Below are positions 4,649 to 16,283 of a stretch of 16,283 nt of DNA, piece by piece (position 1 is the first letter of the stretch; every line of letters starts with the position of its first letter). Made by a program: the position numbers and the translations under genes. This DNA comes from Anaerolineaceae bacterium UBA4799 (GTDB taxonomy: Bacteria; Chloroflexota; Anaerolineae; Anaerolineales; Anaerolineaceae). The notes under the pieces are model-generated. The model had not been told where the DNA came from, made no database searches, and worked only from the letters and a program-made list of their open reading frames with translations. The stretch lies in contig DHGL01000015.1 in assembly GCA_002402725.1 (NCBI GenBank), positions 6,519-22,801 on the forward strand, read 5' to 3'.

Positions 4649-5635
4649 TTATCTCGCCAGCATGCGCGCCATGTCGATGTAATCCTGGGCGATGACCTTC
4701 TTATTATTGATGACCTCGTCAATGGGAATGGGGATGATCTCGCGGCCTGAAAGCGCGGTCATCACCGCGCTCCTGCCTTCCAGCAGAAACTGCACAGCCT
4801 TAACGCCAAAGCGGGTGGCCAGCATGCGGTCAAAAGCGGTGGGTTTGCCGCCACGTTGCACGTGCCCTAAGATGGTAACGCGGGTCGTAAAACCGATGTC
4901 CATGGCGTCGATCATGGCGCTAAGTTCGCTGGTGGGTGGTTTAAAGCCCTCGGCAACTACCACGATGGCGTGGGTCTTGCCGCGGCGGTAGGCTTCTTCA
5001 ATGGCTTTGGCAACCTCTCTGGGGGGTGTTTTGATTTCGGGAATGAGCACCAGTTCAGCGCCGGTGATGATCCCCGCCTGCACCGCCAGGTAACCGGAGG
5101 CGCGCCCCATCGTTTCCACCAGGAAGGCGCGGTTGTGTGATGAGGCGGTATCGCGCAGCTTGTCGATGGCGTCCACGATGGTGTTGAGCGCTGTATCCAC
5201 ACCGATGCACATATCGGTGCCGTAAATATCATTATCAATGCTCGCTGGCACGCCGATGACCGGGATACCCTTCTGGGTCAGTTTCTGAGCGCCAGCCAGT
5301 GAACCGTCTCCGCCGGCGACAATGAGCGCATCCATTTCAGCGTTATTGATCTGGCGGATGGCCTCCCGCTGACCGCTGGCTTCGCGGAATTCTGTGCTGC
5401 GCGCGGTCTGCAATATCGTTCCACCGCGCTGCAGGATGCCGCCCACCTCACGAATGCCCAGCTCATGGAACTTCCCGTGAATGAGTCCTTCGTAACCGCC
5501 TTCAACACCCAGCACGATGATGTCGTTGGCGCAGGCGGTGCGCACCACAGCGCGGATGAAGGGATTCATCCCCGGAGCGTCGCCGCCAGAGGTCATTACA
5601 CCAATCTTCCTGATTTTTTTCACCAGGTCGCTCAT
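4649..5635 (-). CDS. pfkA: ATP-dependent 6-phosphofructokinase
   Basis: 328 residues from ATG at 5635 (MSDLVKKIRKIGV). Upstream in-frame codons read antisense to nothing recognisable and overlap the dnaE tail, and AGGA stands 5 bases before this ATG. The enzyme phosphorylates fructose 6-phosphate to fructose 1,6-bisphosphate, the committed step of glycolysis. Motifs: TSGGDAPGMN (15-24), GGDGS (108-112), IDNDIYGTD (133-141) with catalytic base D134, LRDTASSHNRAF (160-171), VETMGRASGYLA (173-184) and GHVQRGG (257-263). Gly at 111 (E. coli 104) favours ATP over pyrophosphate. The residue equivalent to E. coli G124, Lys in PPi enzymes, is Ala131. Length fits bacterial PfkA (about 320). It is 19 bases downstream of dnaE on the same strand and ends at a shared terminator, so it is very likely the second gene of a dnaE-pfkA operon. 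Confidence 0.95.
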   Translation of the reverse strand: MSDLVKKIRKIGVMTSGGDAPGMNPFIRAVVRTACANDIIVLGVEGGYEGLIHGKFHELGIREVGGILQRGGTILQTARSTEFREASGQREAIRQINNAEMDALIVAGGDGSLAGAQKLTQKGIPVIGVPASIDNDIYGTDMCIGVDTALNTIVDAIDKLRDTASSHNRAFLVETMGRASGYLAVQAGIITGAELVLIPEIKTPPREVAKAIEEAYRRGKTHAIVVVAEGFKPPTSELSAMIDAMDIGFTTRVTILGHVQRGGKPTAFDRMLATRFGVKAVQFLLEGRSAVMTALSGREIIPIPIDEVINNKKVIAQDYIDMARMLAR

Positions 5636-5654
5636 ATCAATCCTGTTGTCCTCT

Positions 5655-8600
5655 TTAGAGGTTTTCAACCTGAATGTTCTCTCTACCCACCAGTTCAGCC
5701 AGTTGCTCAACCAGTTCTTTAGAAGCGTTGGTGGTATCGTTCGGAAAATCCAGCAGGTGCCGGTACCCGTGCTCATACAACATAAAGCAGAAACGGTCCT
5801 GCCCCGGGAAGGAGTTCAACACACCGTGCACCAGACGGATACGGCGCACATCCCGTTCCTTTTCTCCGCTGGATTTGATGGTCACCGTCACCAACCTGAT
5901 CCCACCCGTCTCAGCCGTGCCGGTTAAAGTTATCAGCGGGGACATGATTACCGGTGGGCGGACAAAGCCGCGTGATGGTGTTTCACCGGTTACCTCATCG
6001 CCGCCGCGGGGTTCCCGTATTGTAGTGGCAGCGAGTACGGGTTGCGGTGAAAGTGGCGCGGGGATGTTTTCTGCCTCAGGTTCATCAACATGGTTTTCGA
6101 AAGCCGTGGCAGCGGGAGGCATGGATACCTGCCAGGTGGTTTCTTCGTCAGAAAGCGGGGGTTCTTCGTAACCGTTCACCTGGTCCACAAACCGCATGGT
6201 ATCGATATCCGTTTGCCAGGTCTCCTCAACGCCACGGTTTGAAGGGTTATCTGCAGGCATTTCGAAAGCCGGGATGTCTTCTTCACGCAGCGGTTTAATC
6301 ACATCCACCAGCACTTTAGCATCGGATTTCGCCAGATCCATCTTGCCCTCCACCAAGATGACGGATTCCATTTTGACGAGCGCGCCCATTCTTTCCCAGA
6401 CTCTGGGGAAGATGACCAGTTCGACCGCGCCTTGCAGGTCTTCAATGGTGGCAAAAGCCATCTGGTCTCCCTTCTTGGTCACCGTGGTGCGGATGTGCGT
6501 CACCATGCCGGCAACGATGACCTTTTGTTTATCACCAGCTTCAGCCAGATCCCTGGTAGAGTGCGTGGCTTGTTGACGGATGAGTGGCAGGTAGGGGGAA
6601 ATGGGGTGATCGGAAATATACATACCCAGCAATTCTTTTTCCCACTCCAACTGCATGCGGCGGTCGAGCAGAATACCGGCTGGCAGGTGTATCTCTTCCT
6701 CCAGACCGGCGGCGCTGCCAAATATGCTCATCTGTCCGCACTCCGCGGCGCGGAAATGGCTGTTGCTGACTGAAATGAGGTTATCCACCACATCCAGCAG
6801 CGCCCGGCGCGGACCGAAGCGGTCCAACGCGCCAACCTTGATCAGGCATTCCAGGCTGCGTTTGCCTACGCTATGCAGGTCCACCCGGCGCACAAAATCA
6901 TTAAGATCTTTGAAATCGCCGCTTTGCCTGGCCTGGAAGATCAGGTCAACCGGGGCGATACCGACATTTTTGACCGCGCCCAGCCCAAAGTGTATGGCTG
7001 ACCTGCCATCGGGGTAGTCTTCGATGCAAAAGTCCCACTCGCTGTTATTAATGTCAGGAGGCAGGATCTCGATGCCCATGGAGCGTGCATCGGCCACGTA
7101 AAACGCCACCTTGCTACTCTCATCCTTGGTAACGGAGAGCAGCGCAGTCATGTATTCCACCGGGTAATGCAGTTTGAGGTAAGCGGTTTCCACCGCGATA
7201 ACGCCGTAATCAGCGGCGTGACTTTTATTGAAACCGTAGCGGGCGAATCCCTCCCACCCGGTAAAGATCTGCCGCGCCTGGTCAGCGGAAATGTTGTTCT
7301 TTTGCGCGCCGGCGATGAATTTCTCGCGGTGCTCTTCAACAGCTTCCTTTATCTTCTTGGAGATGGCCTTACGCAGATTATCCGCTTCAGAAGCGGTATA
7401 ACCAGCCAGTTCCATCACCGCCATCATCAACTGTTCCTGGTACACCGGCAAGCCGTAGGTCTCTTTGAATATTCGTTCCATCACCGGGTGCTCGTAGGTG
7501 ACCTCTTCTTCACCGTGCATGCGGCTGAGGTAGTTGGGGATGATTTCCATGGGGCCGGGGCGGAAAAGCGCCACCATGGCGATGATATGCGCCAGGTTTT
7601 GAGGCTGCATCTGCATGATGTAACGGGTCATCCCAGTGCCTTCCAGCTGGAACAGGCCGGCGGTGTGTCCTTTACTGATGAACTCGAAAGTCTCGGGGTC
7701 GTCCAGGGGAATGTTGTGCAGGTCGAACTCGATATGATGGCGTTCTTTTATGAGGTCGCAGGCCTTGTGGATGATGGTGATGGTGGCGAGACCTAAAAAG
7801 TCCACCTTGAGCAGGCCGAGTTTGGTGATGATGTTCATTTCGAACTGGGTGACCGACTTGATAGGAGATTCTTCGGCGTTGCTGGTGGGCCGGTGCAGCG
7901 GCAGGTACTCCAGCAGCGGCACATCCGTGATGACCACACCGGCAGCGTGCGTACCGGCGTTACGGGCTACCCCTTCCATGCGGCTTGCGGTATCGATCAG
8001 GTCTTTAACATATCCACCCTCATTGTAAATAGTTTGAAACTCGGGGCTTTTTTCGATCGCTTTGGCAATGGTGACAGTCTCGTCAGGGATCATCGCCGGC
8101 ACCGCTTTTGATATGCGGTCCACTTCGGAAAGTGGCACATCCATCACACGGCCAACATCACGGATGGCAGCTCGGGCACCCAATGTGCCGAAGGTGATGA
8201 TCTGCGCCACCTTATCGCTGCCGTATTTTTCTGCGCAGTACTGCAAGATTTGGGCGCGCTTGTCGTCTTGAAAATCCAGATCGATATCCGGCATCTCGCT
8301 GCGGGACGGATTGAGAAAACGCTCAAACAGCAAAGCGTGTTTGAGGGGGTCAATGAGAGTGATGTTGAGCGAGTATGCCACGATCGAACCCGCGCCTGAT
8401 CCACGGGTGTTGTACCACACGTTATTTTCAGCAGCGTATCGGCATAAGTCCCACACGATGAGGAAATAAGCATCGAAACCCATCTCATGGATGATCTTGA
8501 GTTCGTATTCAAGGCGCTGCCTTACTTCGGGGTCATCACTGCGGCCAGGGTATTTAACCTTCAACCCGTCTTCACAGAGTTTTTTTAAATACGTCTGGGT

Positions 8601-9476
8601 GGTGAATCCTTCAGGTACATTAAAAAGGGGAAGGTGGTAGCCCTTTTTAATGAGGTTTACATTGCAGCGCTCGGCGATTTCAAGGGTATTGCTCAATGCG
8701 GAGGGGATATCCGGAAAGAGAGCAGCCATTTCCTGCGGCGAGCGCAGGTAGAAAGTATTCGCGCCCATCTTCATGCGGTTCGGGTCCGAGAGCAGCGAAC
8801 CGGTCTGGATGGCGAGCATGATATCCTGCAGGCGTGCGTCCTCCTGGTCAATGTAGTGCAAATCGTTGGTGGCAACGTACCTGAGGTTGTAACGCTTTCC
8901 CAGGTCAATGAGGACGCGGTTCAGGTCTGGCAACTCACGCAGGGGATGGTTTTGCAGTTCAATGAAAAAATTGTCGCTGCCAAAGGTGTTGATGTACCAT
9001 TCAAGCGCCTTCTGACCGGCTTCTACCCCTTTGTTGAGAATAGTGCGCGGAACCTCGCCAGACATGCACGAGGTTGTGGCAATCAATCCCTCTTTGTGGT
9101 TTTCGAGGAACTCGTGGTCAACACGGGGGTAATAATAAAACCCTTCCAATTGGCCGGCGGTGGCAATCTGCAACAGGTTTTTATAACCTGTTTCATTCTC
9201 TGCCAGCAGCACCAGGTGATAGGAGTGTTTGTCCTTCATCGGGTCGCGGTCGCTCATGCGGCGGGCGGATATATACGCTTCGATGCCGATGAGGGGCTTT
9301 ACCCCGGCTTCGACCGCAGCCGAGAAGAACTCGATAACACCGAACATAGTTCCGTGGTCTGTGATGGCAATGGAATCCATTCCCAAATCCTTCACTTTAT
9401 GGATCAGCTTTTTAATGTTGCTGAAGCCATCGAGGAGTGAATATTCAGTATGGACGTGAAGGTGGGCAAATGACAT
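5655..9476 (-). CDS. dnaE: DNA polymerase III alpha subunit (replicative polymerase, DnaE1 type)
   Basis: 1273 residues from ATG at 9476 (MSFAHLHVHTEYS); eight extra codons from a TTG at 9500 are open but less likely. It is the catalytic subunit of the replicative polymerase. The N-terminal PHP domain keeps all nine expected metal ligands: H7, H9, D16, H41, E66, H87, C137, D205 and H207. The palm carries RGSGAGS (358-364), PDIDLDF (396-402, catalytic D397 and D399) and KVDFLGL with D559. A helix-hairpin-helix region and an OB-fold (VIVAGMVTHIRTTVTKKG, then FATIEDLQGAVELVIFP) follow. About 1065-1168 is a long acidic, Pro-rich linker, and the last about 105 residues form a separate small domain. 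E. coli DnaE is 1160 residues; the excess lies in this linker and tail. No intein is seen. pfkA follows 19 bases downstream. Confidence 0.96.
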   Translation of the reverse strand: MSFAHLHVHTEYSLLDGFSNIKKLIHKVKDLGMDSIAITDHGTMFGVIEFFSAAVEAGVKPLIGIEAYISARRMSDRDPMKDKHSYHLVLLAENETGYKNLLQIATAGQLEGFYYYPRVDHEFLENHKEGLIATTSCMSGEVPRTILNKGVEAGQKALEWYINTFGSDNFFIELQNHPLRELPDLNRVLIDLGKRYNLRYVATNDLHYIDQEDARLQDIMLAIQTGSLLSDPNRMKMGANTFYLRSPQEMAALFPDIPSALSNTLEIAERCNVNLIKKGYHLPLFNVPEGFTTQTYLKKLCEDGLKVKYPGRSDDPEVRQRLEYELKIIHEMGFDAYFLIVWDLCRYAAENNVWYNTRGSGAGSIVAYSLNITLIDPLKHALLFERFLNPSRSEMPDIDLDFQDDKRAQILQYCAEKYGSDKVAQIITFGTLGARAAIRDVGRVMDVPLSEVDRISKAVPAMIPDETVTIAKAIEKSPEFQTIYNEGGYVKDLIDTASRMEGVARNAGTHAAGVVITDVPLLEYLPLHRPTSNAEESPIKSVTQFEMNIITKLGLLKVDFLGLATITIIHKACDLIKERHHIEFDLHNIPLDDPETFEFISKGHTAGLFQLEGTGMTRYIMQMQPQNLAHIIAMVALFRPGPMEIIPNYLSRMHGEEEVTYEHPVMERIFKETYGLPVYQEQLMMAVMELAGYTASEADNLRKAISKKIKEAVEEHREKFIAGAQKNNISADQARQIFTGWEGFARYGFNKSHAADYGVIAVETAYLKLHYPVEYMTALLSVTKDESSKVAFYVADARSMGIEILPPDINNSEWDFCIEDYPDGRSAIHFGLGAVKNVGIAPVDLIFQARQSGDFKDLNDFVRRVDLHSVGKRSLECLIKVGALDRFGPRRALLDVVDNLISVSNSHFRAAECGQMSIFGSAAGLEEEIHLPAGILLDRRMQLEWEKELLGMYISDHPISPYLPLIRQQATHSTRDLAEAGDKQKVIVAGMVTHIRTTVTKKGDQMAFATIEDLQGAVELVIFPRVWERMGALVKMESVILVEGKMDLAKSDAKVLVDVIKPLREEDIPAFEMPADNPSNRGVEETWQTDIDTMRFVDQVNGYEEPPLSDEETTWQVSMPPAATAFENHVDEPEAENIPAPLSPQPVLAATTIREPRGGDEVTGETPSRGFVRPPVIMSPLITLTGTAETGGIRLVTVTIKSSGEKERDVRRIRLVHGVLNSFPGQDRFCFMLYEHGYRHLLDFPNDTTNASKELVEQLAELVGRENIQVENL

Positions 9477-9505
9477 TGCTGACCGCGGTCTCGCTCTCAA
9501 CTGGT

Positions 9506-9521
9506 AATATTTGAAAATATT
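9506..9521. repeat. AT-rich inverted repeat at the dnaE promoter
   Basis: AATATT (9506-9511) and AATATT (9516-9521), separated by TGAA, form a 6-bp dyad that overlaps the dnaE -10 box and reaches the expected transcription start. An operator is possible, but a dyad this short and AT-only could be chance. Confidence 0.3.
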
Positions 9522-9524
9522 ATA
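9519..9524 (-). promoter_or_regulatory. Putative extended -10 promoter of dnaE-pfkA
   Basis: On the minus strand TGC-TATAAT reads toward dnaE, with TATAAT at 9524-9519, about 42 bases before the ATG at 9476. The upstream TG of an extended -10 is present. No clear -35 element is visible. An AATATT-tgaa-AATATT inverted repeat (9506-9521) lies over and just downstream of it. Confidence 0.5.
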
Positions 9525-9529
9525 GCATG

Positions 9530-9678
9530 CGCAGATTCGCAGTTTCTTAAGAGTCAGTCATCCCCATTCAAATTTAAGGAAGGTCAGATTTCAACGCGGC
9601 AAGGCGAATCAGACACCGGGATGGGAGATTCTGGCAACAGGCTTTTATTTAAGATAATTTTGAATCTTAAAACAATTG
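9530..9678. other. Intergenic stretch between the CYTH gene and the dnaE promoter
   Basis: About 150 bases with no convincing reading frame. Its one visible structure is an 8-bp AT-rich inverted repeat, TTTAAGAT (9648-9655) with ATCTTAAA (9664-9671), located 8 bases past the CYTH stop on the minus strand. It may be a weak minus-strand terminator, followed by TAAAAG, but the stem is poor in GC. Nothing else is evident. Confidence 0.4.
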
Positions 9679-10305
9679 TTACAAGAAAAACGGTCGGTCT
9701 GCCGGGCGCACGCCCAGGTCGCTACCGGTGAGTGCGATATCAGCGAATGCGGCGAAGGTCAAATCCCGCATGGTGAGTCCCCTGCCACGTTTGAGCGTCT
9801 CGAAGAGTTCGAGGTAACTGGATTCAATGCGCGTCTCCCAATCCATAGAGAGCACGGCAGCCGTCGAGCGGATGACAGCGGTGTCAGCGCCTTCGATCTC
9901 GCAAAAATTGCCGTAGGGTAATTCGTCGAGGGTGATTAGCAATCCGTTGAGGCGGTACATGGCACGCCATTTTTCATAGCTCACGGTGAGTACATACCCC
10001 AACCCTTCGAGGATCAACCAGGCGTTACCCAGGTTATCCACTTCGACCTCGTATTCAAGGCGCGTGCGCACGCCATCGATAGTAGAGGAAGGGCCTTTGA
10101 ATGTAAGAATATCGCGCACATCATGGCGCAGACGCAGCGCCCGCCCTGAAAGGGTAAGCGCGCCATCCGGCGTGTCGAAGCGGTAGTTCGTTTCGCGGGT
10201 ACGCGCCTGCACCTGTTCGGCCCCAAGGGAGACCAGCCGATCACGTAACGCGGGCAGGTCAGATAGGTAAAACTTCACTTCCATTTCGACGGTGGTTTGT
10301 GCCAT
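9679..10305 (-). CDS. CYTH-domain protein (class IV adenylate cyclase / triphosphate-tunnel family)
   Basis: 208 residues from ATG at 10305, chosen because GGAGG lies 6 bases upstream on the minus strand; a TTG at 10311 is open in frame but badly placed. The N-terminal EMEVKFY (residues 7-13) is the E-x-E-x-K signature of CYTH proteins, which bind triphosphate groups inside a beta-barrel tunnel. Other matching elements are ETNYRFDTPDG, LRLRHD, ILTFKGP and RTRLEYEVEV, with alternating Arg/Lys/Glu strands that line the tunnel, and later DELPYGNFCEIEG. Members include CyaB adenylate cyclase, thiamine triphosphatase and inorganic triphosphatase; the sequence does not decide which applies. The stop of the upstream membrane-protein gene lies 2 bases before this ATG, so translation is probably coupled. 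Confidence 0.85.
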   Translation of the reverse strand: MAQTTVEMEVKFYLSDLPALRDRLVSLGAEQVQARTRETNYRFDTPDGALTLSGRALRLRHDVRDILTFKGPSSTIDGVRTRLEYEVEVDNLGNAWLILEGLGYVLTVSYEKWRAMYRLNGLLITLDELPYGNFCEIEGADTAVIRSTAAVLSMDWETRIESSYLELFETLKRGRGLTMRDLTFAAFADIALTGSDLGVRPADRPFFL

Positions 10306-10307
10306 GG

Positions 10308-10754
10308 TCAACCTCCGGGCATGTCTTTAGATGTGCTGCCAGTCCCTTTCATGTAAGGTTCGAGTAACCAGGATGATACTAACACAAATGCCAGTACTAA
10401 CACAGATATCACGAGAGGAAAAAGGTGGTTCTTGAATGGCTGCGGGTTACGCGTGAGCACGAGGCGGTCAAACCAGAACCAGGTGAAAATCAGCAACGCG
10501 CAGACCTGACCGAGGCGCGGCGCGAAACGCCACCTTCCCCACAAGACCAGCGCTGCTGATAAGGAAAGGAGGGCGAGTAACAGGGTCTTGAAGAGCAGGT
10601 ACACCGGGTGCGGAAAATAATCAGCAGCCAGCAGCCATTTCCAGGATTGCAGCGTCTGCGGGATGCCGGCGAGGTTCGCCAGGAATACGAGAATAAAGAA
10701 ACCGGCGAGCAGATGCAGCAGAAATGGGGGGCGGACCCTGGTGGTTTGTTCCAT
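10308..10754 (-). CDS. Hypothetical four-helix membrane protein
   Basis: 148 residues from ATG at 10754. Four hydrophobic segments are visible: about 11-30 (FLLHLLAGFFILVFLANLAG), about 51-72 (VYLLFKTLLLALLSLSAALVLWG), about 84-96 (VCALLIFTWFWFDRL) and about 112-131 (LFPLVISVLVLAFVLVSSWLL). The short N-terminus and the loops carry Arg/Lys. I recognise no named family; small proteins with this WFDRL-type third helix seem common in Chloroflexota, but that is from memory. The stop at 10308-10310 is 2 bases from the CYTH start, so the two genes form one transcription unit. No ribosome-binding site is seen before its ATG, and the predicted transcription start is only about 8 bases upstream, so initiation may be nearly leaderless. 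Confidence 0.75.
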   Translation of the reverse strand: MEQTTRVRPPFLLHLLAGFFILVFLANLAGIPQTLQSWKWLLAADYFPHPVYLLFKTLLLALLSLSAALVLWGRWRFAPRLGQVCALLIFTWFWFDRLVLTRNPQPFKNHLFPLVISVLVLAFVLVSSWLLEPYMKGTGSTSKDMPGG

Positions 10755-10768
10755 GGTAAGTGTTGTGG

Positions 10769-10800
10769 ATTATAGCACGCGACATCACGCGGCGCGTCAA
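10769..10800 (-). promoter_or_regulatory. Promoter for the membrane protein-CYTH operon
   Basis: Minus strand: TTGACG at 10800-10795 and a perfect TATAAT at 10774-10769, preceded by TG in the extended -10 position (TGCTATAAT). The 20-base spacer is long, so the extended -10 probably matters most. The -35 box abuts the -35 box of the opposite promoter. Confidence 0.55.
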
Positions 10801-10806
10801 CTTGAC
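10796..10806. repeat. Dyad GTCAA-c-TTGAC between two divergent promoters
   Basis: GTCAA (10796-10800), one C, then TTGAC (10802-10806). It is formed by the two back-to-back -35 boxes. It could simply be the consequence of adjacent TTGAC hexamers or a shared regulator site. Confidence 0.45.
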
Positions 10807-10829
10807 AGCCGCTTAAAGTCGGATATACT
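10802..10829 (+). promoter_or_regulatory. Sigma70-type promoter upstream of the small membrane protein and gatCA
   Basis: A perfect TTGACA at 10802-10807, a 16-base spacer and TATACT at 10824-10829. Predicted start is near 10836, giving a leader of about 29 bases with GAAAGGGG before the ATG at 10865. It is the best-formed promoter in the window and would drive the small gene and the gatC-gatA-M-R series. Confidence 0.75.
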
Positions 10830-10864
10830 GACAAAGACCTTGCGAGAGAAAGAAAGGGGCTCGG

Positions 10865-11104
10865 ATGAAAATCTCTATCTGGGATATTCTGACCATTGTG
10901 TTGATCATCGCCGCGCTGGTGTTGCTGGTGGTGGTGCTGGTGATCTTCACCAATCCTGATTCCCGCATCAACCCGTTTCCCTTCCCCACGCTCCCGCCGA
11001 CCATCGTGGTACCCACGCCGACCCCCACACTGCTACAAATGCCGCCTACCTGGACGCCCACACCACTATTCGAGGCGACACCTGTCTTAACCGGAACTCC
11101 TTAA
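10865..11104 (+). CDS. Small single-pass membrane protein with Pro/Thr-rich tail
   Basis: 79 residues from ATG 10865, with GAAAGGGG about 6 bases upstream. Residues about 6-28 (WDILTIVLIIAALVLLVVVLVIF) form one transmembrane helix. The rest is Pro/Thr-rich and low-complexity (PFPFPTLPPTIVVPTPTPT, then a TPTPLFEATPVLTGTP end), the style of extracytoplasmic stalks or linkers common in Chloroflexota envelope proteins. No family is recognised and no function can be assigned. It is the first gene behind the strong promoter at 10802-10829 and stands 41 bases before gatC without an obvious terminator, so it may be the lead gene of the gat transcript. Confidence 0.65.
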   Translation: MKISIWDILTIVLIIAALVLLVVVLVIFTNPDSRINPFPFPTLPPTIVVPTPTPTLLQMPPTWTPTPLFEATPVLTGTP

Positions 11105-11145
11105 TACTTACCCGCATACTCCAAAGATGAAGCGAGAGTTGAACC

Positions 11146-11466
11146 ATGAGCGAACAGATAACAAAAGAGGTGTTTGACCATCTGGTTGGCCTGGCCGCGC
11201 TGCAGCTGGATGCAGAACAGGCGGAATACTTGCGCCGGCAATTGAACAACCAGTTAAAAGCCATCGCTGAACTGGAAGCCATTCCGCTGGATAAAGATGT
11301 GCCCATCAGCCTGCACGGCGTGCCCTTTGAAGAACCCGCCAGCGCGCCGCCGCGTGACGATGAGTGGAAGCCCTACCCTGACCCGGCGGGCATCCTGGCG
11401 CAGGCGCCGCAGGTGGAAGACGGCTATATTGTGGTTCCTGATATCCCTCATACCGAGTTAAAGTAG
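11146..11466 (+). CDS. gatC: Asp-tRNA(Asn)/Glu-tRNA(Gln) amidotransferase subunit C
   Basis: 106 residues from ATG 11146. GatC wraps around the GatA/GatB interface and stabilises the amidotransferase that converts Glu-tRNA(Gln) and Asp-tRNA(Asn) to the amidated forms. The N-terminal helices (VFDHLVGLAALQLDAEQAEY, then LNNQLKAIAELEAI) and the C-terminal stretch (DPAGILAQAPQVEDGYIVVP) fit the family, in which an N-A-P-x-x-x-D-G-Y-F-x-V-P type ending is typical. It is slightly longer than the usual about 95 residues. Only a weak GCGAGAG-like ribosome-binding site precedes it. gatA begins 5 bases after its stop. Confidence 0.93.
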   Translation: MSEQITKEVFDHLVGLAALQLDAEQAEYLRRQLNNQLKAIAELEAIPLDKDVPISLHGVPFEEPASAPPRDDEWKPYPDPAGILAQAPQVEDGYIVVPDIPHTELK

Positions 11467-11471
11467 GCCGC

Positions 11472-13061
11472 ATGGAATTCTGTGATCGCAACGCACTTGA
11501 ATTAGCGCGCCTGGTGCGCAGCCGCGAGACCTCCGCCGTGGAAGTTGTGAAAGCCTGCCTGGAACGCGTCGCGCTGGTGGATGGGCGACCGGGTTCGTTG
11601 GAGCAGGCGCCGCTCTCCGATGAGGATAAAAAGCGCGTACACGCTTTTATCACCCTGACCGGAGAAGGCGCGCTACAGCAGGCAGTGGAGATTGACCGCA
11701 GGCTGGCTGCTGGTGAAGACCCCGGGGCGCTTGCCGGCGTGCCTTTCACGGTGAAAGATATTTTCTGTGTCGCAGGTACCTTCTCAACGGCGGCTTCAAA
11801 AATATTGGCGAACTTCAAAGCCCCTTACACCGCCACCCCGGTGCAGCGCATGCAAAACGCCGGCGCCATTATGCTGGGCAAGGTCAACCTGGATGAATTT
11901 ACTTATGGTTCTTCCAATGAATCCTCAGCCTACCAGCCCAGCCCGCGCAACCCGTGGAAACCCGACCGCGTACCAGGTGGTTCCTCAGGCGGCAGCGCCG
12001 CCAGCGTAGCCGCGGGTGAGGCTCCGTTATCACTGGGCACAGACACGGCCGGCTCCATTCGCCAACCTGCGGCATTCTGCGGAGTGGTGGGGGTCAAACC
12101 CACCTACGGGCGGGTTTCGCGCTACGGGCTGATTGCCTTTGCTTCCTCACTCGATTGCCCCGGACCGGTGGCGCGCAATGTGAAAGACGCCGCCGCTATG
12201 CTGGGGGTCATCGCCGGCGCGGATGAGCACGATGCCACCGCCGTGCCCCTGTCGGTACCCGATTACCTGGAAGGCATCGAGGATGGCGTGAAGGGAATGA
12301 GGATTGGTTTATCGCCTGATTATTTCCGCATAACCTACCCCGACCCGGCGAGCGGCGAATTGCTCAGCCAGCCGTTGCCACCGGAGATCGAGCGTTCGGT
12401 GCGCGCTGCCGCCGAGATACTGGCGGCCATGGGGGCGGAAATTATCGAGAATGTGCCCATGCCCAACACGCGCTTCGGCATCCCGGCGTATTTTGTCATC
12501 AGCCGCGTCGAAGCCGCCTCCAACCTGCACCGCTATGACGGCGTGAAGTACGGGCTGCGCAGCGAGGTGCCCACAACGGACCTGAAGGAAATGTACAGGT
12601 TCACGCGCAACCAGGGTTTCGGGCTGCAGCCCAAACTGCGCATCCTTATGGGGATGTACGTGAGCGCGGCGCAGTACAGCGAACAATATTACCGGCGCGC
12701 GCTGCAAGTGCGCACCCTCATCCGCCGCGACTTTGAAGAGATATTTACCCCGGCGGGTGCGTACCGGCTGGACGCACTGCTGACGCCGACCACGCCCACC
12801 ACAGCCTTCGAGATGGCAGCGGTGTACGGTGACTCGGTGCTGATGCAGTACGCCGACCAGCTGACAGTGCCCGCCAACCACGCTGGCGTGCCAGGGTTAT
12901 CTCTGCCCGCCGGGTTGGATGGTGATGGGCTGCCTATCGGCATCCAGCTGCTAGGCGCAGATTACAACGAGAAGACGCTGTTCCGCGTGGCGCGGGCTTA
13001 CGAGATGGCCACGGAAAATGAAGATTGGCGCAAACAAAAACCGGATGTGTTAACAAAATGA
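11472..13061 (+). CDS. gatA: Asp-tRNA(Asn)/Glu-tRNA(Gln) amidotransferase subunit A
   Basis: 529 residues from ATG 11472. GatA is the amidase-signature subunit that releases ammonia from glutamine for transfer to misacylated tRNA. The catalytic triad can be placed: Lys95 in GVPFTVKDIF, cis-Ser171 in GGSSGGS (169-175) and nucleophile Ser195 in DTAGSIRQPA (191-200). The 24-residue spacing between the two serines matches known family members. DEFTYGSSNESSAY and GVVGVKPTYGRVSRYGL are further hallmarks. It is longer than the usual about 490 residues, with an insert near 37-55 and another around the PDPASGELL segment. The stop TGA at 13059-13061 overlaps the ATG of a foreign-looking DNA methyltransferase. 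In a normal operon gatB would follow here; instead gatB begins 2.1 kb later. Confidence 0.96.
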   Translation: MEFCDRNALELARLVRSRETSAVEVVKACLERVALVDGRPGSLEQAPLSDEDKKRVHAFITLTGEGALQQAVEIDRRLAAGEDPGALAGVPFTVKDIFCVAGTFSTAASKILANFKAPYTATPVQRMQNAGAIMLGKVNLDEFTYGSSNESSAYQPSPRNPWKPDRVPGGSSGGSAASVAAGEAPLSLGTDTAGSIRQPAAFCGVVGVKPTYGRVSRYGLIAFASSLDCPGPVARNVKDAAAMLGVIAGADEHDATAVPLSVPDYLEGIEDGVKGMRIGLSPDYFRITYPDPASGELLSQPLPPEIERSVRAAAEILAAMGAEIIENVPMPNTRFGIPAYFVISRVEAASNLHRYDGVKYGLRSEVPTTDLKEMYRFTRNQGFGLQPKLRILMGMYVSAAQYSEQYYRRALQVRTLIRRDFEEIFTPAGAYRLDALLTPTTPTTAFEMAAVYGDSVLMQYADQLTVPANHAGVPGLSLPAGLDGDGLPIGIQLLGADYNEKTLFRVARAYEMATENEDWRKQKPDVLTK

Positions 13062-13063
13062 CA
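13057..13063. repeat. Left copy of AATGACA direct repeat bracketing the island
   Basis: AATGACA here spans the gatA stop and the methyltransferase start; an identical heptamer at 15182-15188 spans the gatB start. It could be a target-site duplication or a recombination scar, but a 7-base match at two start codons could also be chance. Confidence 0.3.
13058..13061 (+). promoter_or_regulatory. ATGA stop-start overlap, gatA to methyltransferase
   Basis: The methyltransferase ATG (13058-13060) overlaps the gatA TGA (13059-13061). No convincing ribosome-binding site lies upstream, so re-initiation by ribosomes finishing gatA is the likely route of translation. Confidence 0.7.
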
Positions 13064-14005
13064 ACAATTAATATTCAGAATAGCTTTTCCCCCGAAGCAA
13101 ATTGTATTCTATTTAAGGGAAATGTCTTGGATTTGATGCCTGAAATTCCAGACAAACATGTTCAATTAATTGTCACATCACCTCCCTATAATCTAGGAAA
13201 AGTATACGAAGAACGAGTTGATTTCGATATTTACTTAGATGAACAAAAGAAAATAATCAATCAATGTAATCGAATTATAAGAGATGAAGGGAGTATTTGT
13301 TGGCAAGTTGGAAATCACGTGAGGAATGGCGAGATCATACCATTAGATATTCCATTATTCCCGATTTTTTATGATCTTGGATTTCATCTGCGAAATCGAA
13401 TTGTTTGGTATTTTGGGCATGGACTTCATGCCTCAAAAAGGTTTTCAGGAAGGTACGAAGTAATATTATGGTTCACAAAAACTAATAATTATGTCTTTAA
13501 TCTCGACAATGTTCGTATACCTCAAAAATACCCAAATAAAAAGCATTTTAAAGGTCCGAAAAGGGGTGAATTATCCGGAAATCCTCTCGGAAAAAACCCC
13601 TCAGATGTATGGGAAATACCTAATGTAAAAGCAAATCATATAGAAAAGACTATACACCCATGCCAGTTTCCAGTCGAATTAATAGAGAGACTTGTTCTAG
13701 CCTTATCAAATGAAGGAGATGTAGTATTTGATCCTTTTATGGGTGTTGGAACAACAGCAATTGCCTCGTTATTACATAATAGGAAATCGATTGGAGCAGA
13801 GATAATACCTGAGTACGTTCAAATAGCACAAGAGAGAATAAGGTTGGCAGAAAGTGGAAAGTTAAGAATTCGACCGATGGATAGAGAGGTATATGACCCA
13901 GAACATTCTGCTGTATATAAACCCCCAAAAGTAGTTAATTTTGGAATTCCTAGTCAACCCCATCTACTTAAGGAAAAACCGCGAAATGAGAAAGGGCGAA
14001 AATGA
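13058..14005 (+). CDS. Type II DNA methyltransferase, beta class, probably N4-cytosine
   Basis: 315 residues from ATG 13058, the first start in the AT-rich DNA; an in-frame TTG at 13025 lies inside gatA and would add gatA-derived residues. The catalytic motif IV is TSPPYN (40-45) and the S-adenosylmethionine motif I is FDPFMGVGTTA (224-234), placed after it, which is the beta-class order. HPCQFP (200-205) fits the motif X region just before motif I. An S-P-P-Y motif is typical of N4-cytosine enzymes, whereas adenine enzymes usually have D/N-P-P-Y; the assignment to m4C is therefore likely but not proven. The partner endonuclease belongs to the BglII/BstYI type, whose cognate methylases modify sites around GATC. 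The protein would protect host DNA from that enzyme. Codon use is AT-rich, unlike gatA. Confidence 0.9.
   Translation: MTTINIQNSFSPEANCILFKGNVLDLMPEIPDKHVQLIVTSPPYNLGKVYEERVDFDIYLDEQKKIINQCNRIIRDEGSICWQVGNHVRNGEIIPLDIPLFPIFYDLGFHLRNRIVWYFGHGLHASKRFSGRYEVILWFTKTNNYVFNLDNVRIPQKYPNKKHFKGPKRGELSGNPLGKNPSDVWEIPNVKANHIEKTIHPCQFPVELIERLVLALSNEGDVVFDPFMGVGTTAIASLLHNRKSIGAEIIPEYVQIAQERIRLAESGKLRIRPMDREVYDPEHSAVYKPPKVVNFGIPSQPHLLKEKPRNEKGRK
14002..14005 (+). promoter_or_regulatory. ATGA stop-start overlap, methyltransferase to endonuclease
   Basis: The endonuclease ATG (14002-14004) overlaps the methyltransferase TGA (14003-14005). An AAAGGG at 13991-13996, 5 bases upstream, may also serve as a ribosome-binding site. 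This order lets methylase be made before or with the nuclease. Confidence 0.7.
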
Positions 14006-14547
14006 AGGTTGTTTATGAATATTCACATTTAGGGGGCACAGAAATATTAAAAGTCAGATATCCAAAATTGGAATGTGAAATTTATGATGTGATTGATTCA
14101 GTAACGGCAAATAGGATAAAGGAAAGTAAGGAAAAAACAAAGATTGGTAGAATGTTATACGCACCTACAGACATGAATGATCAGTTTAAAAGAGCTTTTA
14201 ACAAAAGAAATTTCTTAGAATTACGTGATACATACTCTATTTCCATACCCAATTCATCAGTCGTTATTCCTGGTGCATATAAACAAGTAGATTTTGTCAG
14301 AGAAAAAGTACTGGTAGAGGTTCAGTTTGGTAAGTACGCGTTCATGTTCTATGATATGGCGAAATTCCAGTATTTTTTTAATGAAAACAAGGCCGATGTT
14401 GGTGTAGAAATTGTTCCTTGTCATAACCTACACCATTTGATGTCGTCGGGCGTTTCGTATGGTGAACAACTTGTTTATGATATTGAACGTCTAAAACGTC
14501 ATTTCCCAGCTGTACCTGTAAAGGTAATATTAATAGATGTCGAATAA
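14002..14547 (+). CDS. Type II restriction endonuclease, BglII/BstYI family
   Basis: 181 residues from ATG 14002. The N-terminal EYSHLGGTEILKVRYP and the KESKEKTKIGRMLYAP segment, then VDFVREKVLVEVQFGKYAFM and DVGVEIVPC followed by MSSGVSYGEQLVYD, resemble BstYI as I remember it. The active site reads D97-x8-E106-x-Q108, the same spacing and unusual Gln as BglII (D84, E93, Q95) and BstYI (D119, E128, Q130), a variant of the PD-(D/E)xK nuclease core. BglII cuts AGATCT and BstYI cuts RGATCY, so a GATC-centred hexamer is predicted for this enzyme. At 181 residues it is shorter than both (about 223 and 203) but contains the whole core. It starts inside the methyltransferase stop. No controller (C) gene is seen. 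Confidence 0.85.
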   Translation: MKVVYEYSHLGGTEILKVRYPKLECEIYDVIDSVTANRIKESKEKTKIGRMLYAPTDMNDQFKRAFNKRNFLELRDTYSISIPNSSVVIPGAYKQVDFVREKVLVEVQFGKYAFMFYDMAKFQYFFNENKADVGVEIVPCHNLHHLMSSGVSYGEQLVYDIERLKRHFPAVPVKVILIDVE

Positions 14548-14574
14548 TTACGTTGCCATTTAAACGTATGTAAA

Positions 14575-15132
14575 TTGGCTTATGTCAAAGGACATTTAGA
14601 AGGTATTTATTACTTGGATTCTTCTTTTTTGCATTACTTCAATCGTGGTGTCAATCGTGCCCATATAGCTTTTGAGGATGATAACTATCTTTATCTACTC
14701 AGGCTGATGTACCGTTTTCTGCCGTATTATAAAATCGAGTTGGTGGCATATTGCTTGATGCCAAATTACTATCATATATTATTTGAGCAGTTGGAGGATA
14801 AACAAGGTTCACGTTTCATTCAGAGGTTCTTCAATTCGTTTACTCAGGCAATCAACAAATGCTCTGCAAGGGCGGGGACCCTTTTTCAGGGCAGAGCAAA
14901 ACACACTGAATTTGCAGACTTGGTAGACGTAGCAAATGTGGTTGGTTACATTCATCATAACCCGGTTGCAGCAGGATTGGTGAAGCATCCTTCTGAGTGG
15001 AGATATAGTGATTACAATGAATAGGCGGAAAAGGTGGGGTCAACACGCAAAGTTGTAAAATATAGAGAAGCACTCTTCGGTCCGTTGGTTGATTATGTTG
15101 AATTTGTGGAAAATTACGAAAAACAACCTTGA
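14575..15132 (+). pseudogene. Decayed Y1 (IS200/RAYT-like) transposase with premature stop
   Basis: The frame runs from TTG 14575 to TAG 15022-15024 (149 residues) and continues in frame to TGA 15130-15132 with family-like sequence (KYREALFGPLVDYVEFVENY). The start is uncertain, since only a TTG is available. The fold is that of REP-associated tyrosine transposases: FNRGVNRAHIAFEDDNY, YCLMPNYYHILF, the FNSFTQAINK helix, GTLFQGRAKH and GYIHHNPVAAGLVKHPSEWRYSDY. The usual H-x-H of this family (MPNHxH) is here N-Y-Y-H, one C-to-T change from His. The catalytic Tyr expected in the NSYxxxxN context is Phe114. The TAG follows SDYNE, where relatives commonly have Trp (TGG). Three separate lesions argue for an inactive remnant. 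Terminal hairpins typical of such elements were not identified apart from the repeat at 15127-15158. Confidence 0.75.
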
Positions 15133-15158
15133 AAAGGTTAGAAAAAACCTTTTCAAGG
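15127..15158. terminator. 13-bp perfect hairpin upstream of gatB
   Basis: CCTTGAAAAGGTT (15127-15139) pairs fully with AACCTTTTCAAGG (15146-15158) around the loop AGAAAA. The plus strand has no T run after it (CTGTTCGTG), while the minus strand continues TTGTTTTTCG, so as an intrinsic terminator it fits minus-strand transcription better. It contains the distal TGA of the transposase remnant and ends 24 bases before gatB. An element-end structure is the alternative. Confidence 0.6.
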
Positions 15159-15181
15159 CTGTTCGTGCCTAAGCGAGGACT

Positions 15182-15188
15182 AATGACA
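15182..15188. repeat. Right copy of AATGACA direct repeat bracketing the island
   Basis: Identical to 13057-13063. Before insertion, gatB may have begun at an ATGA overlapping the gatA stop, which would explain why both ends of the island carry ATGACA. This is inference. Confidence 0.3.
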
Positions 15189-16283
15189 GATTACGAAGCC
15201 ATCATCGGGCTTGAAACCCATATCCAACTGAATACCACCACCAAGGTGTTCTGTTCATGCAAAGCCGACTCATGGTTCGACCCGCCCAATACCAATATCT
15301 GCCCGGTGTGCTGCGGACTGCCGGGGGTGCTGCCGGTGCTCAACAAGGCTGTAGTGGAGAAGGGTGTGCTGCTGGCGCAGGCTATGAACGCCGAGATCCG
15401 CCCGCTTTCCTTCTTTGACCGCAAAAATTATTTTTACCCCGACCTGCCCAAAGGCTACCAGATCTCTCAATTTGACCAGTCGCTGGCCAGGGGCGGCTAC
15501 CTGGACCTGCCGGTGCCGGGGGCGGCTTCGCCTGATAAACAGGCTTACACCCGCCGCGTGACCATCTGGAAGTTGCACATCGAAGAGGATGCCGGCAAGA
15601 CCAAGGTGGGCAACCGGCGGCGCTTTATCGACTTCAACCGCTGCGGCGTGCCGCTGGTGGAGATGGTGACCGGCCCGGACCTGCGCACTGCTGACGAAGC
15701 GGCGCAGTACCTGATGCGCCTGCGCCAGCTATTGCGCTGGCTGGGCATCTCCGAAGCCGATATGGAAAAGGCGCACTTGAGGTGCGACGCCAACGTCTCC
15801 ATCCGTGTGCGGGGTGAGACCAAGCTGAACCCCAAAACCGAGATCAAGAACGTGAACTCGATTGACGCGGTGCGCGAAGCAATCGCGCGCGAGGTCGAGC
15901 GCCAGATCCGCGAGGTGGAGGCGGGAAACCGCATCGAAGCCTGGACGCTGGAGTGGGACGAGGACAGCGGCACGCTGAAGAAGATGCGTTCCAAGGAAAC
16001 CGAAGCCGATTACCGCTATTTCCGCGAACCCGACCTGCTGCCCATACGCCTGAACGAGGAGTGGAAGCGGCACATCCTGGCGGATTTCCCGGAGCTGCCG
16101 CTGGCGCGGCGCGCGCGCTTCGTGGAACAGTACAACCTGCCGGAGTACGACGCAGATATCCTCACATCAGAACGCAGGCTTTCTGATTACTATGAAAACA
16201 CGCTCAAGGCTTATGGTGGAGACCCCAAGAAGGTTTCCAACTGGTTGATGAACGACGTGTTGCGCATGATCAACGACCAGGGG
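15183..16283 (+). CDS. gatB: Asp-tRNA(Asn)/Glu-tRNA(Gln) amidotransferase subunit B (3' truncated by window edge)
   Basis: The frame is open from ATG 15183 to the window end, 367 codons without a stop; a full GatB is about 480 residues. AGCGAGGA about 6 bases upstream serves as the ribosome-binding site. GatB phosphorylates the misacylated Glu or Asp on tRNA and receives ammonia from GatA. It begins MTDYEAIIGLETHIQLNT, the conserved G-L-E-x-H-x-Q-L start, and has the zinc-binding cysteines in CSC (about residues 24-26) and NICPVCCGLPG. Further hallmarks are PDLPKGYQISQFD, LHIEEDAGK, DFNRCGVPLVEMVTGPD, LRCDANVS, KTEIKNVNS and RSKETEADYRYFREPDLLP. The C-terminal YqeY-like tRNA-binding domain lies outside the window. 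Codon use is GC-rich like gatA. Its separation from gatA by the AT-rich island is the oddity. Confidence 0.97.
   Translation, partial: MTDYEAIIGLETHIQLNTTTKVFCSCKADSWFDPPNTNICPVCCGLPGVLPVLNKAVVEKGVLLAQAMNAEIRPLSFFDRKNYFYPDLPKGYQISQFDQSLARGGYLDLPVPGAASPDKQAYTRRVTIWKLHIEEDAGKTKVGNRRRFIDFNRCGVPLVEMVTGPDLRTADEAAQYLMRLRQLLRWLGISEADMEKAHLRCDANVSIRVRGETKLNPKTEIKNVNSIDAVREAIAREVERQIREVEAGNRIEAWTLEWDEDSGTLKKMRSKETEADYRYFREPDLLPIRLNEEWKRHILADFPELPLARRARFVEQYNLPEYDADILTSERRLSDYYENTLKAYGGDPKKVSNWLMNDVLRMINDQG

Follow-up and report, generated by a model that had tools for sequence, protein, structure and literature searches.

Restriction-modification (R-M) systems of the PabI family lie inserted in housekeeping operons of Helicobacter and Campylobacter, and it has been proposed that operon insertion of an R-M system may impose maintenance of the operon (PMC4615327). 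Small integration hotspots for R-M systems have been suggested (PMC4176335), and both R-M insertion with a long target duplication and movement linked to insertion sequences (IS) have been described (PMC3031569). The methyltransferase M.Nph3I, the partner of a pfam09195 endonuclease, makes N6-methyladenine (6mA) in RGATCY (PMC10734518). Here we describe a stretch of 16,283 nucleotides (the window) from an uncultured Anaerolineaceae bacterium, in which the gat operon is interrupted between gatA and gatB by a methyltransferase-endonuclease pair (M and R) and a transposase open reading frame (ORF). We consider it likely, with a probability of roughly 0.68, that a BstYI-type R-M system was acquired horizontally, inserted at a closed gatA/gatB overlap and is carried within the gat transcript, the gap being a recurrent slot.

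An earlier note on the window had placed an R-M system inside gatCAB, and matches to Pfam, NCBIfam and PDB entries bear this out: M, R and the transposase ORF separate gatA from gatB. It had also described about 2.1 kb of AT-rich DNA at 13058..15181, limits that prove right to within a few bases when the block is delimited against the genome of a close relative. The GC content per 500 bases falls from 0.63 (12501-13000) to 0.34-0.42 in the block and is 0.62 in gatB, and the GC content at third codon positions (GC3) is 0.25 for M and 0.28 for R versus 0.71 for gatA and 0.79 for gatB.

M is an N6_N4 methyltransferase (PF01555, E 1e-56; PADLOC MTase_II, E 5e-91) with the motifs TSPPY and then DPFMGVGTT; its best solved relative is M.RsrI (PDB, E 1e-35), and its sequence does not distinguish formation of N4-methylcytosine from that of N6-methyladenine. 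R matches PF09195 over positions 3-162 of the 163 in the profile (71.7 bits versus a cut-off of 26, E 8e-20) and is related to BstYI (PDB, E 2e-35; PADLOC REase_II, E 1e-38). Residues D97, E106 and Q108 of R align with D119, E128 and Q130 of BstYI, positions that we take to be catalytic, and they are invariant in 5/5 gat-slot copies. Among ten proteins run through PADLOC, the window M, the window R and one TIR protein were matched and seven were not. The cognate M adjoins R in the window, and M and R are found together again in other genomes; together they would make an ordinary type II R-M system whose site is probably RGATCY, as for BstYI, both activity and specificity being predicted here from family membership. 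RGATCY occurs nine times in the window versus 13.3 expected, and in neither M nor R; these counts are uninformative, and site avoidance was set aside as evidence. The pair itself is common in a class sample, where a BstYI-like match of some kind was found in 89 of 396 genomes. Searches of plasmid and phage collections gave no close donor, only four records each with endonuclease relatives at 33-42% identity. In all, 2135 relatives of the endonuclease were listed, one of which is 94% identical to R.

Close relatives reveal the junction without the block. In a blastn comparison with the corresponding region of G519 (L219), window positions 5605-13049 and 15173-16283 match and adjoin each other in L219 at 7443 and 7446, so that the flanks are syntenic on both sides. 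Among relatives whose junction is intact, the nearest are G519, G520 and G521, and in all three gatA overlaps gatB by four bases. A tree of gatA and gatB joins the window to G519 (99%), then to G521 (100%) and then to a group of G520, G006 and G516 (97%). The G516 gap holds no gene; its gatB (L222:6710-8141) is split over two overlapping frames in the assembly, through either a frameshift or an assembly error. In G006, whose gatA and gatB are on different contigs, gatB is preceded by a remnant of a transposase, 25 residues long and 80% identical, while the G522 gap, of about 120 nt, contains no gene. A lipoprotein-like gene lies in the gap of nine relatives (G001, G007, G008, G009, G010, G011, G517, G523 and G524), calls that rest on N-termini or BLAST; the one copy run against Pfam, that of L042, is a CAP-domain protein. 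Because junctions in close relatives are closed or free of R-M genes, the block of about 2.12 kb is derived in the lineage of the window and is an insertion. Comparison of these junctions was the check that the earlier note had proposed, and the uninterrupted state in three close relatives speaks for the insertion it suspected. At the insertion gatA lacks its last few codons, and gatB retains GAGG before its ATG. Neither a long duplication nor an IS was found at the block edges, only short look-alike bases.

The window is not alone in this arrangement. A GatB search gave at least 579 confirmed loci, and by tblastn against the best 80 of them an M-R pair lies between gatA and gatB in four (L009, L013, L021 and L056). 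Seventeen of the 80 lack gatA on the piece analysed; of the remaining 63, five are non-Chloroflexi by title, all with short gaps. A gene order conserved across the class, which the earlier note had named as the sign of an old arrangement, is rejected, as the pair occupies only 4 of these 63 junctions. With a fifth further genome (L115/L136, from G469) the number rises to six including the window, and these cassettes are scattered on the gat tree. The earlier note had known of no described case of this arrangement. It is not a single case, as five more Anaerolineaceae genomes have M-R at gatA|gatB, and R-M insertion into operons was already published for the PabI family (PMC4615327). Sampled gat-slot cassettes are 65-67% (M) and 71-77% (R) identical to those of the window, L136 giving 65 and 77% by tblastn.

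Spacing in the six cassettes (in the order window, L009, L013, L021, L056, L136) is -4, 17, 13, 4, 115 and 3 nt from the gatA stop to the M start; -4, -4, -1, -17, -17 and -17 nt from M to R, an overlap in all six; and 635 (including the transposase ORF), 59, -8, 3, 170 and 30 nt from R to gatB. The block might also be an assembly chimera joined at 13058 or 15181. A GC step at both edges is what such an artefact might leave, but the same gatA-M-R-gatB order in five other assemblies makes it very unlikely; the ATGA overlap at the join, the synteny of both flanks with G519 and the record of an identical endonuclease on 16 contigs (gene contexts not included) argue in the same direction.

When 147 family genomes were searched, 24 matches came up, and 13 of these are both near-complete and members of the close subfamily. 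Of the 13, five lie at gatA|gatB, six just upstream of a nucleotidyltransferase gene that in relatives belongs to a second gat cluster, and two elsewhere (G411 and G450); a further copy, in G433, is partial. Outside the family, none of the 16 near-complete close-subfamily cassettes in the 396-genome class sample has gat proteins in its flanks, the fetched flanks being short in some cases at contig ends. The difference (5/13 versus 0/16) gives p 0.011 by Fisher's test, or p 0.0013 if the six second-locus copies are counted as one event, both values ignoring relatedness. The presence of related cassettes in this gap in five genomes besides the window suggests that it is a favoured landing place.

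It is also a gap in which other genes lie. Among the 63 loci with both genes on one contig, 37 have a gatA-gatB gap of at least 249 nt, whereas a gatC-gatA gap of more than 250 nt occurs in 1 of 52 (p 5e-12 for the contrast). A census of the 147 family genomes found both genes in 121, on one contig in 109 and adjacent in 108; these 108 pairs are separated by up to 120 nt in 72 cases, by 125 nt in one and by more than 250 nt in 35. Four R-M genomes are among the 35, and the fifth, G003, falls outside because its gatA is split over contigs. Ten representative cargos gave Pfam matches to CAP, DUF4870 (two), M55 peptidase, DNA alkylation repair, PMT-like, PDDEXK_3, TIR and HEAT proteins, one remaining without a match. 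In 20 family gaps that were re-read, DUF4870-like and lipoprotein-like genes predominate, so that most cargo is non-defence, and no additional R-M system was seen in them. With 37 of its 63 loci occupied, the gat operon is a tolerant rather than a locked slot. One gap in another Chloroflexi genome holds a TIR-domain protein (L049:5542-6753; PADLOC TIR, E 6e-15), possibly a defence gene.

Cargo can also change between close relatives. In two close kin of G469, another gene stands in place of the R-M genes: a PMT-like one in G468 and one of similar appearance in G467. The gatA genes of G469 and G468 are 80-99% identical per 25 codons, with 33% in the last few codons, and gatB is 89-98% identical from its start; the cargo is swapped without visible exchange of flanks. 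This exchange, the conservation of both the gatA and the gatB flank and the occupation of the same slot in scattered lineages could also be accounted for if cassettes spread within the family by homologous recombination in gatA and gatB, slot and cargo moving together. A donor tract was sought in the flanking gat genes of G469 and G468 and was not found, and at 65-67% (M) and 71-77% (R) identity the cassettes show no recent exchange among the sampled genomes, although donors may be unsampled. We regard this route as unlikely.

The history of the cassettes was examined with a gat tree of 64 taxa and an R-M tree of 49 sets, loci missing one gene being left out. On the gat tree the six R-M junctions require six Fitch changes, or one gain followed by 15 losses. 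Parallel arrival is the more economical account, and we favour it since close relatives allow the ancestors of both the window and G469 to be taken as devoid of R-M genes. An opposing view has the R-M pair enter the gat operon once, long ago, in an ancestral member of the Anaerolineaceae and descend vertically; most lineages would then have lost or replaced it, while that of the window kept it. Such a history would fit the correlation of R-M with gat distances over ten taxa (Mantel p 0.0008), the possibility that gat-located and second-gat-locus cassettes form one lineage, and the second-locus clade, which shows that long inheritance of such cassettes is possible. The correlation disappears among the six gat-slot pairs (p 0.39), and for the ten R-M sets the gat topology is rejected (approximately unbiased [AU] test, p 0.006), some gat nodes being weak. 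Moreover, the window is nested within G519, G521, G520 and G516, all without a gene in the gap; an ancient insertion would therefore need several precise re-closures to a 4-nt overlap, besides the 15 losses, and the family has still more R-M-free junctions than the 64-taxon tree. We judge an ancient insertion improbable.

Several observations weigh against our own account of horizontal acquisition and parallel arrival. The AU test does not reject monophyly of the gat cassettes (p 0.059 for these six, 0.115 when the six second-locus cassettes are added), and R-M distances among cassettes are as large as gat distances, so that one old gat-associated lineage is possible. Support is weak at many of the deep nodes in the gat tree. 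A target duplication was not established and a mobilising enzyme was not identified, and in a scan of the region against shuffled sequences promoter- and terminator-like sites were not above chance. Base composition does not date the arrival, because the apparently vertically inherited second-locus clade remains AT-rich (M GC3 0.23-0.32, within a family range of 0.20-0.51 for M and 0.24-0.59 for R, the partial G433 copy at 0.60 being left out); AT-richness was accordingly rejected as proof of recent arrival.

The transposase ORF inside the block, next to a palindrome of the repetitive extragenic palindromic (REP) type, invites the idea that a REP-type transposase brought the block into the gap. 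The ORF scores 63.4 bits with NF047646, under the cut-off of 80, and 25 bits with PF01797, over the cut-off of 23. The earlier note had called it a remnant, which suits its degenerate HUH motif, NYYH with the first His lost where L002, L004, L044 and L226 have NHYH, but not its nearly full length. Other copies vary too: that of L207 does not match the HUH pattern used, that of L002 has an in-frame stop, and that of L044 (73.1 bits) is also under the NF047646 cut-off. No transposase lies beside the other five gat-slot cassettes, and related copies occupy the gatA-gatB gap without R-M genes in G007, G009, G010 and G524; a related copy also directly follows gatA in G450. Because of this distribution, and with the motif degenerate, the transposase is very unlikely to have been the vehicle, and we regard it as an occupant of the slot in its own right that came to lie within the block by chance. 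The palindrome is an 18-nt inverted repeat. It belongs to a dispersed REP-like family (CCTTGANAAGGTT...AACCTTNTCAAGG) with eight copies in G009 and ten in G010, and it occurs beside gat genes in the window, L004 and L044; the pattern was absent from eight other genomes searched.

The second gat cluster bears on what the operon means to its host. Many Anaerolineaceae carry two clusters (for example G006, G001, G007, G411 and G009, loci L198, L199, L203, L205 and L216), and in relatives the second has the order gatC2-gatA2-...-nucleotidyltransferase-aminotransferase-...-gatB2. In G424 (L135, reverse strand) the order is gatC2-gatA2-M-R-nucleotidyltransferase-aminotransferase-gatB2, with M-R directly after gatA2. 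Of the six second-locus genomes only this one keeps gatA2 beside the cassette; G423 keeps gatB2. The second set of G001 exceeds the NCBIfam cut-offs (GatA 578 versus 481 bits, GatB 547 versus 315, GatC 86 versus 47).

According to the earlier note, deletions touching the neighbouring gat genes would be lethal and the R-M unit would thereby be stabilised. One observation favours this argument: no GlnRS over the cut-off was found in the four nearest relatives, as against 10 of 20 other family genomes (genome completeness not stated), and tRNA-dependent amidation is therefore probably needed in these relatives, not necessarily by this operon. The AsnRS profile has matches in 20 of 20 genomes, none over the cut-off, and L195 (G001:C17:307085-308386) is best described as a non-discriminating AspRS (TIGR00458, 400 bits versus a cut-off of 368; one protein checked), which suggests that Asn-tRNA is made indirectly in G001. 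Two others weaken it. A second GatA is present in three of the four nearest relatives searched, and in G411 a distance of 2.9 Mb separates gatA from gatB on the same contig (at least 0.56 Mb if the contig is circular). The protection argument is thus weak; lethality is not established for this operon, and essentiality as a settled fact was set aside.

Taken together, these observations lead us to propose the following. An M-then-R cassette would have entered between the last codons of gatA and the start region of gatB, leaving both housekeeping proteins essentially whole, and would be transcribed as an inner segment of the gat message. The M start appears to have taken over the ATGA stop-start that joins gatA to gatB in relatives, since it supplies the gatA stop, and the R start overlaps the M stop by 4 nt in the same manner; because of these overlaps, we infer that translation of M and R is coupled to gatA. 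Constant expression through the gat operon, as the earlier note imagined, fits this anatomy. M would mark the site, probably RGATCY, and R would cut unmarked incoming DNA, while in a cell that lost the cassette, endonuclease still present would threaten the chromosome. The related cassettes found in this slot in six Anaerolineaceae genomes would most simply have got there by parallel arrival. If so, nature has repeated an experiment at the gatA|gatB gap on how a toxic gene and its protective partner reach a safe place of expression with no recognisable mobile element involved.

A further, tentative suggestion concerns the 3' end of gatA, where BstYI-type R-M systems of Anaerolineaceae may preferentially land and be expressed; parallel arrivals of divergent cassettes would have filled gatA|gatB in six genomes and, in one case (G424), the site behind gatA2 of the second, non-orthologous gat operon. 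No GGAGG-like site was seen by eye at the M start in any of the six gat-slot cassettes, while L013 and L021 have one at the start of R; since it is also missing from certain M copies elsewhere in genomes, this is a hint rather than a test. The argument would be that M, having no strong ribosome-binding site, is translated by re-initiation from gatA termination, so that the 3' end of gatA is preferred. In that event, host housekeeping translation would set methylation before restriction, and gatB would be demoted to independent initiation.

The features of the region are collected in Table 1. The scan found eight promoter-like sites versus 6.6 expected from shuffling, the candidate gat promoter being a consensus match only, and a terminator-like site at 14862, within the transposase ORF.

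Table 1. Features of the gat operon and the inserted block in the window
Feature	Position	Strand	Basis
Candidate gat-operon promoter	10802..10829	+	TTGACA-16-TATACT, 11/12 consensus matches; best of 8 promoter-like sites
gatC	11146-11466	+	PF02686 39.5 bits, above cut-off; TIGR00135 39.8 bits versus cut-off 47.1 (below)
gatA	11472-13061	+	TIGR00132 475 bits versus cut-off 481 (just below); stop within ATGA 13058-13061
Inserted block	about 13050-15172	.	blastn versus closed junction of G519; edges uncertain by a few bases
Amino-methyltransferase M of predicted type II R-M system	13058-14005	+	PF01555, PADLOC MTase_II, M.RsrI
BstYI/BglII-family restriction endonuclease R	14002-14547	+	PF09195, BstYI (PDB), PADLOC REase_II
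REP-associated tyrosine transposase-like ORF	14575-15024	+	NF047646 below cut-off; HUH motif degenerate (NYYH)
REP-like palindrome, upstream of gatB	15122-15163	.	Inverted repeat 94% complementary; fold z -5.95
gatB	15183-16283, runs past window end	+	TIGR00133 426 bits versus cut-off 315 (above); GAGG 7-10 nt before ATG

Empty sites and swapped cargo in close kin would make the entry of R-M systems into core operons testable, and with it the question of whether operon insertion serves expression, retention or neither. In the literature searched, by title or abstract start, we found no paper on an R-M system between gatA and gatB; an earlier survey of mobile R-M forms, cited in PMC3031569 (Furuta 2010, NAR 38:2428), may contain such a case. 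GatCAB is a glutamine-using amidotransferase, as are glutamate synthase, imidazole glycerol phosphate synthase and GMP synthase. The latter three are R-M loci in the PabI study (PMC4615327), and the shared nature of these hosts is probably a coincidence.

As a gene pair, the cassette resembles BstYI and the R.Nph3I/M.Nph3I system of phage NrS-3, in which a PF09195 endonuclease likewise stands beside a methyltransferase; RGATCY specificity was demonstrated for R.Nph3I, whereas for the window R it is predicted from the family, and the window pair differs from both systems in being chromosomal and within gat (PMC10734518). Like the unit that enters the chromosome in PMC3031569, the pair is an insertion, but with no long duplication and no IS at the block edges. 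It shares with the hotspots of PMC4176335 the gain of R-M genes in short regions between core genes; unlike them, the gat slot is intra-operonic, and most occupied junctions hold other cargo, such as a CAP-domain lipoprotein, DUF4870, M55 peptidase or DNA alkylation repair protein. The closest parallel is the PabI family, where R-M genes also lie on the same strand in an operon of housekeeping genes, flanked by genes for one enzyme or pathway, where the same locus is used in different genera and where insertion is shown by close genomes without the R-M genes (PMC4615327). PabI is a restriction glycosylase, whereas the enzymes here are BstYI-like and the operon is gatCAB; and here one gap is occupied in six genomes of a single family, which also puts other genes there. 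The gene pair is ordinary and comparable insertions are known; what surprises is that one operon gap has been chosen again and again.

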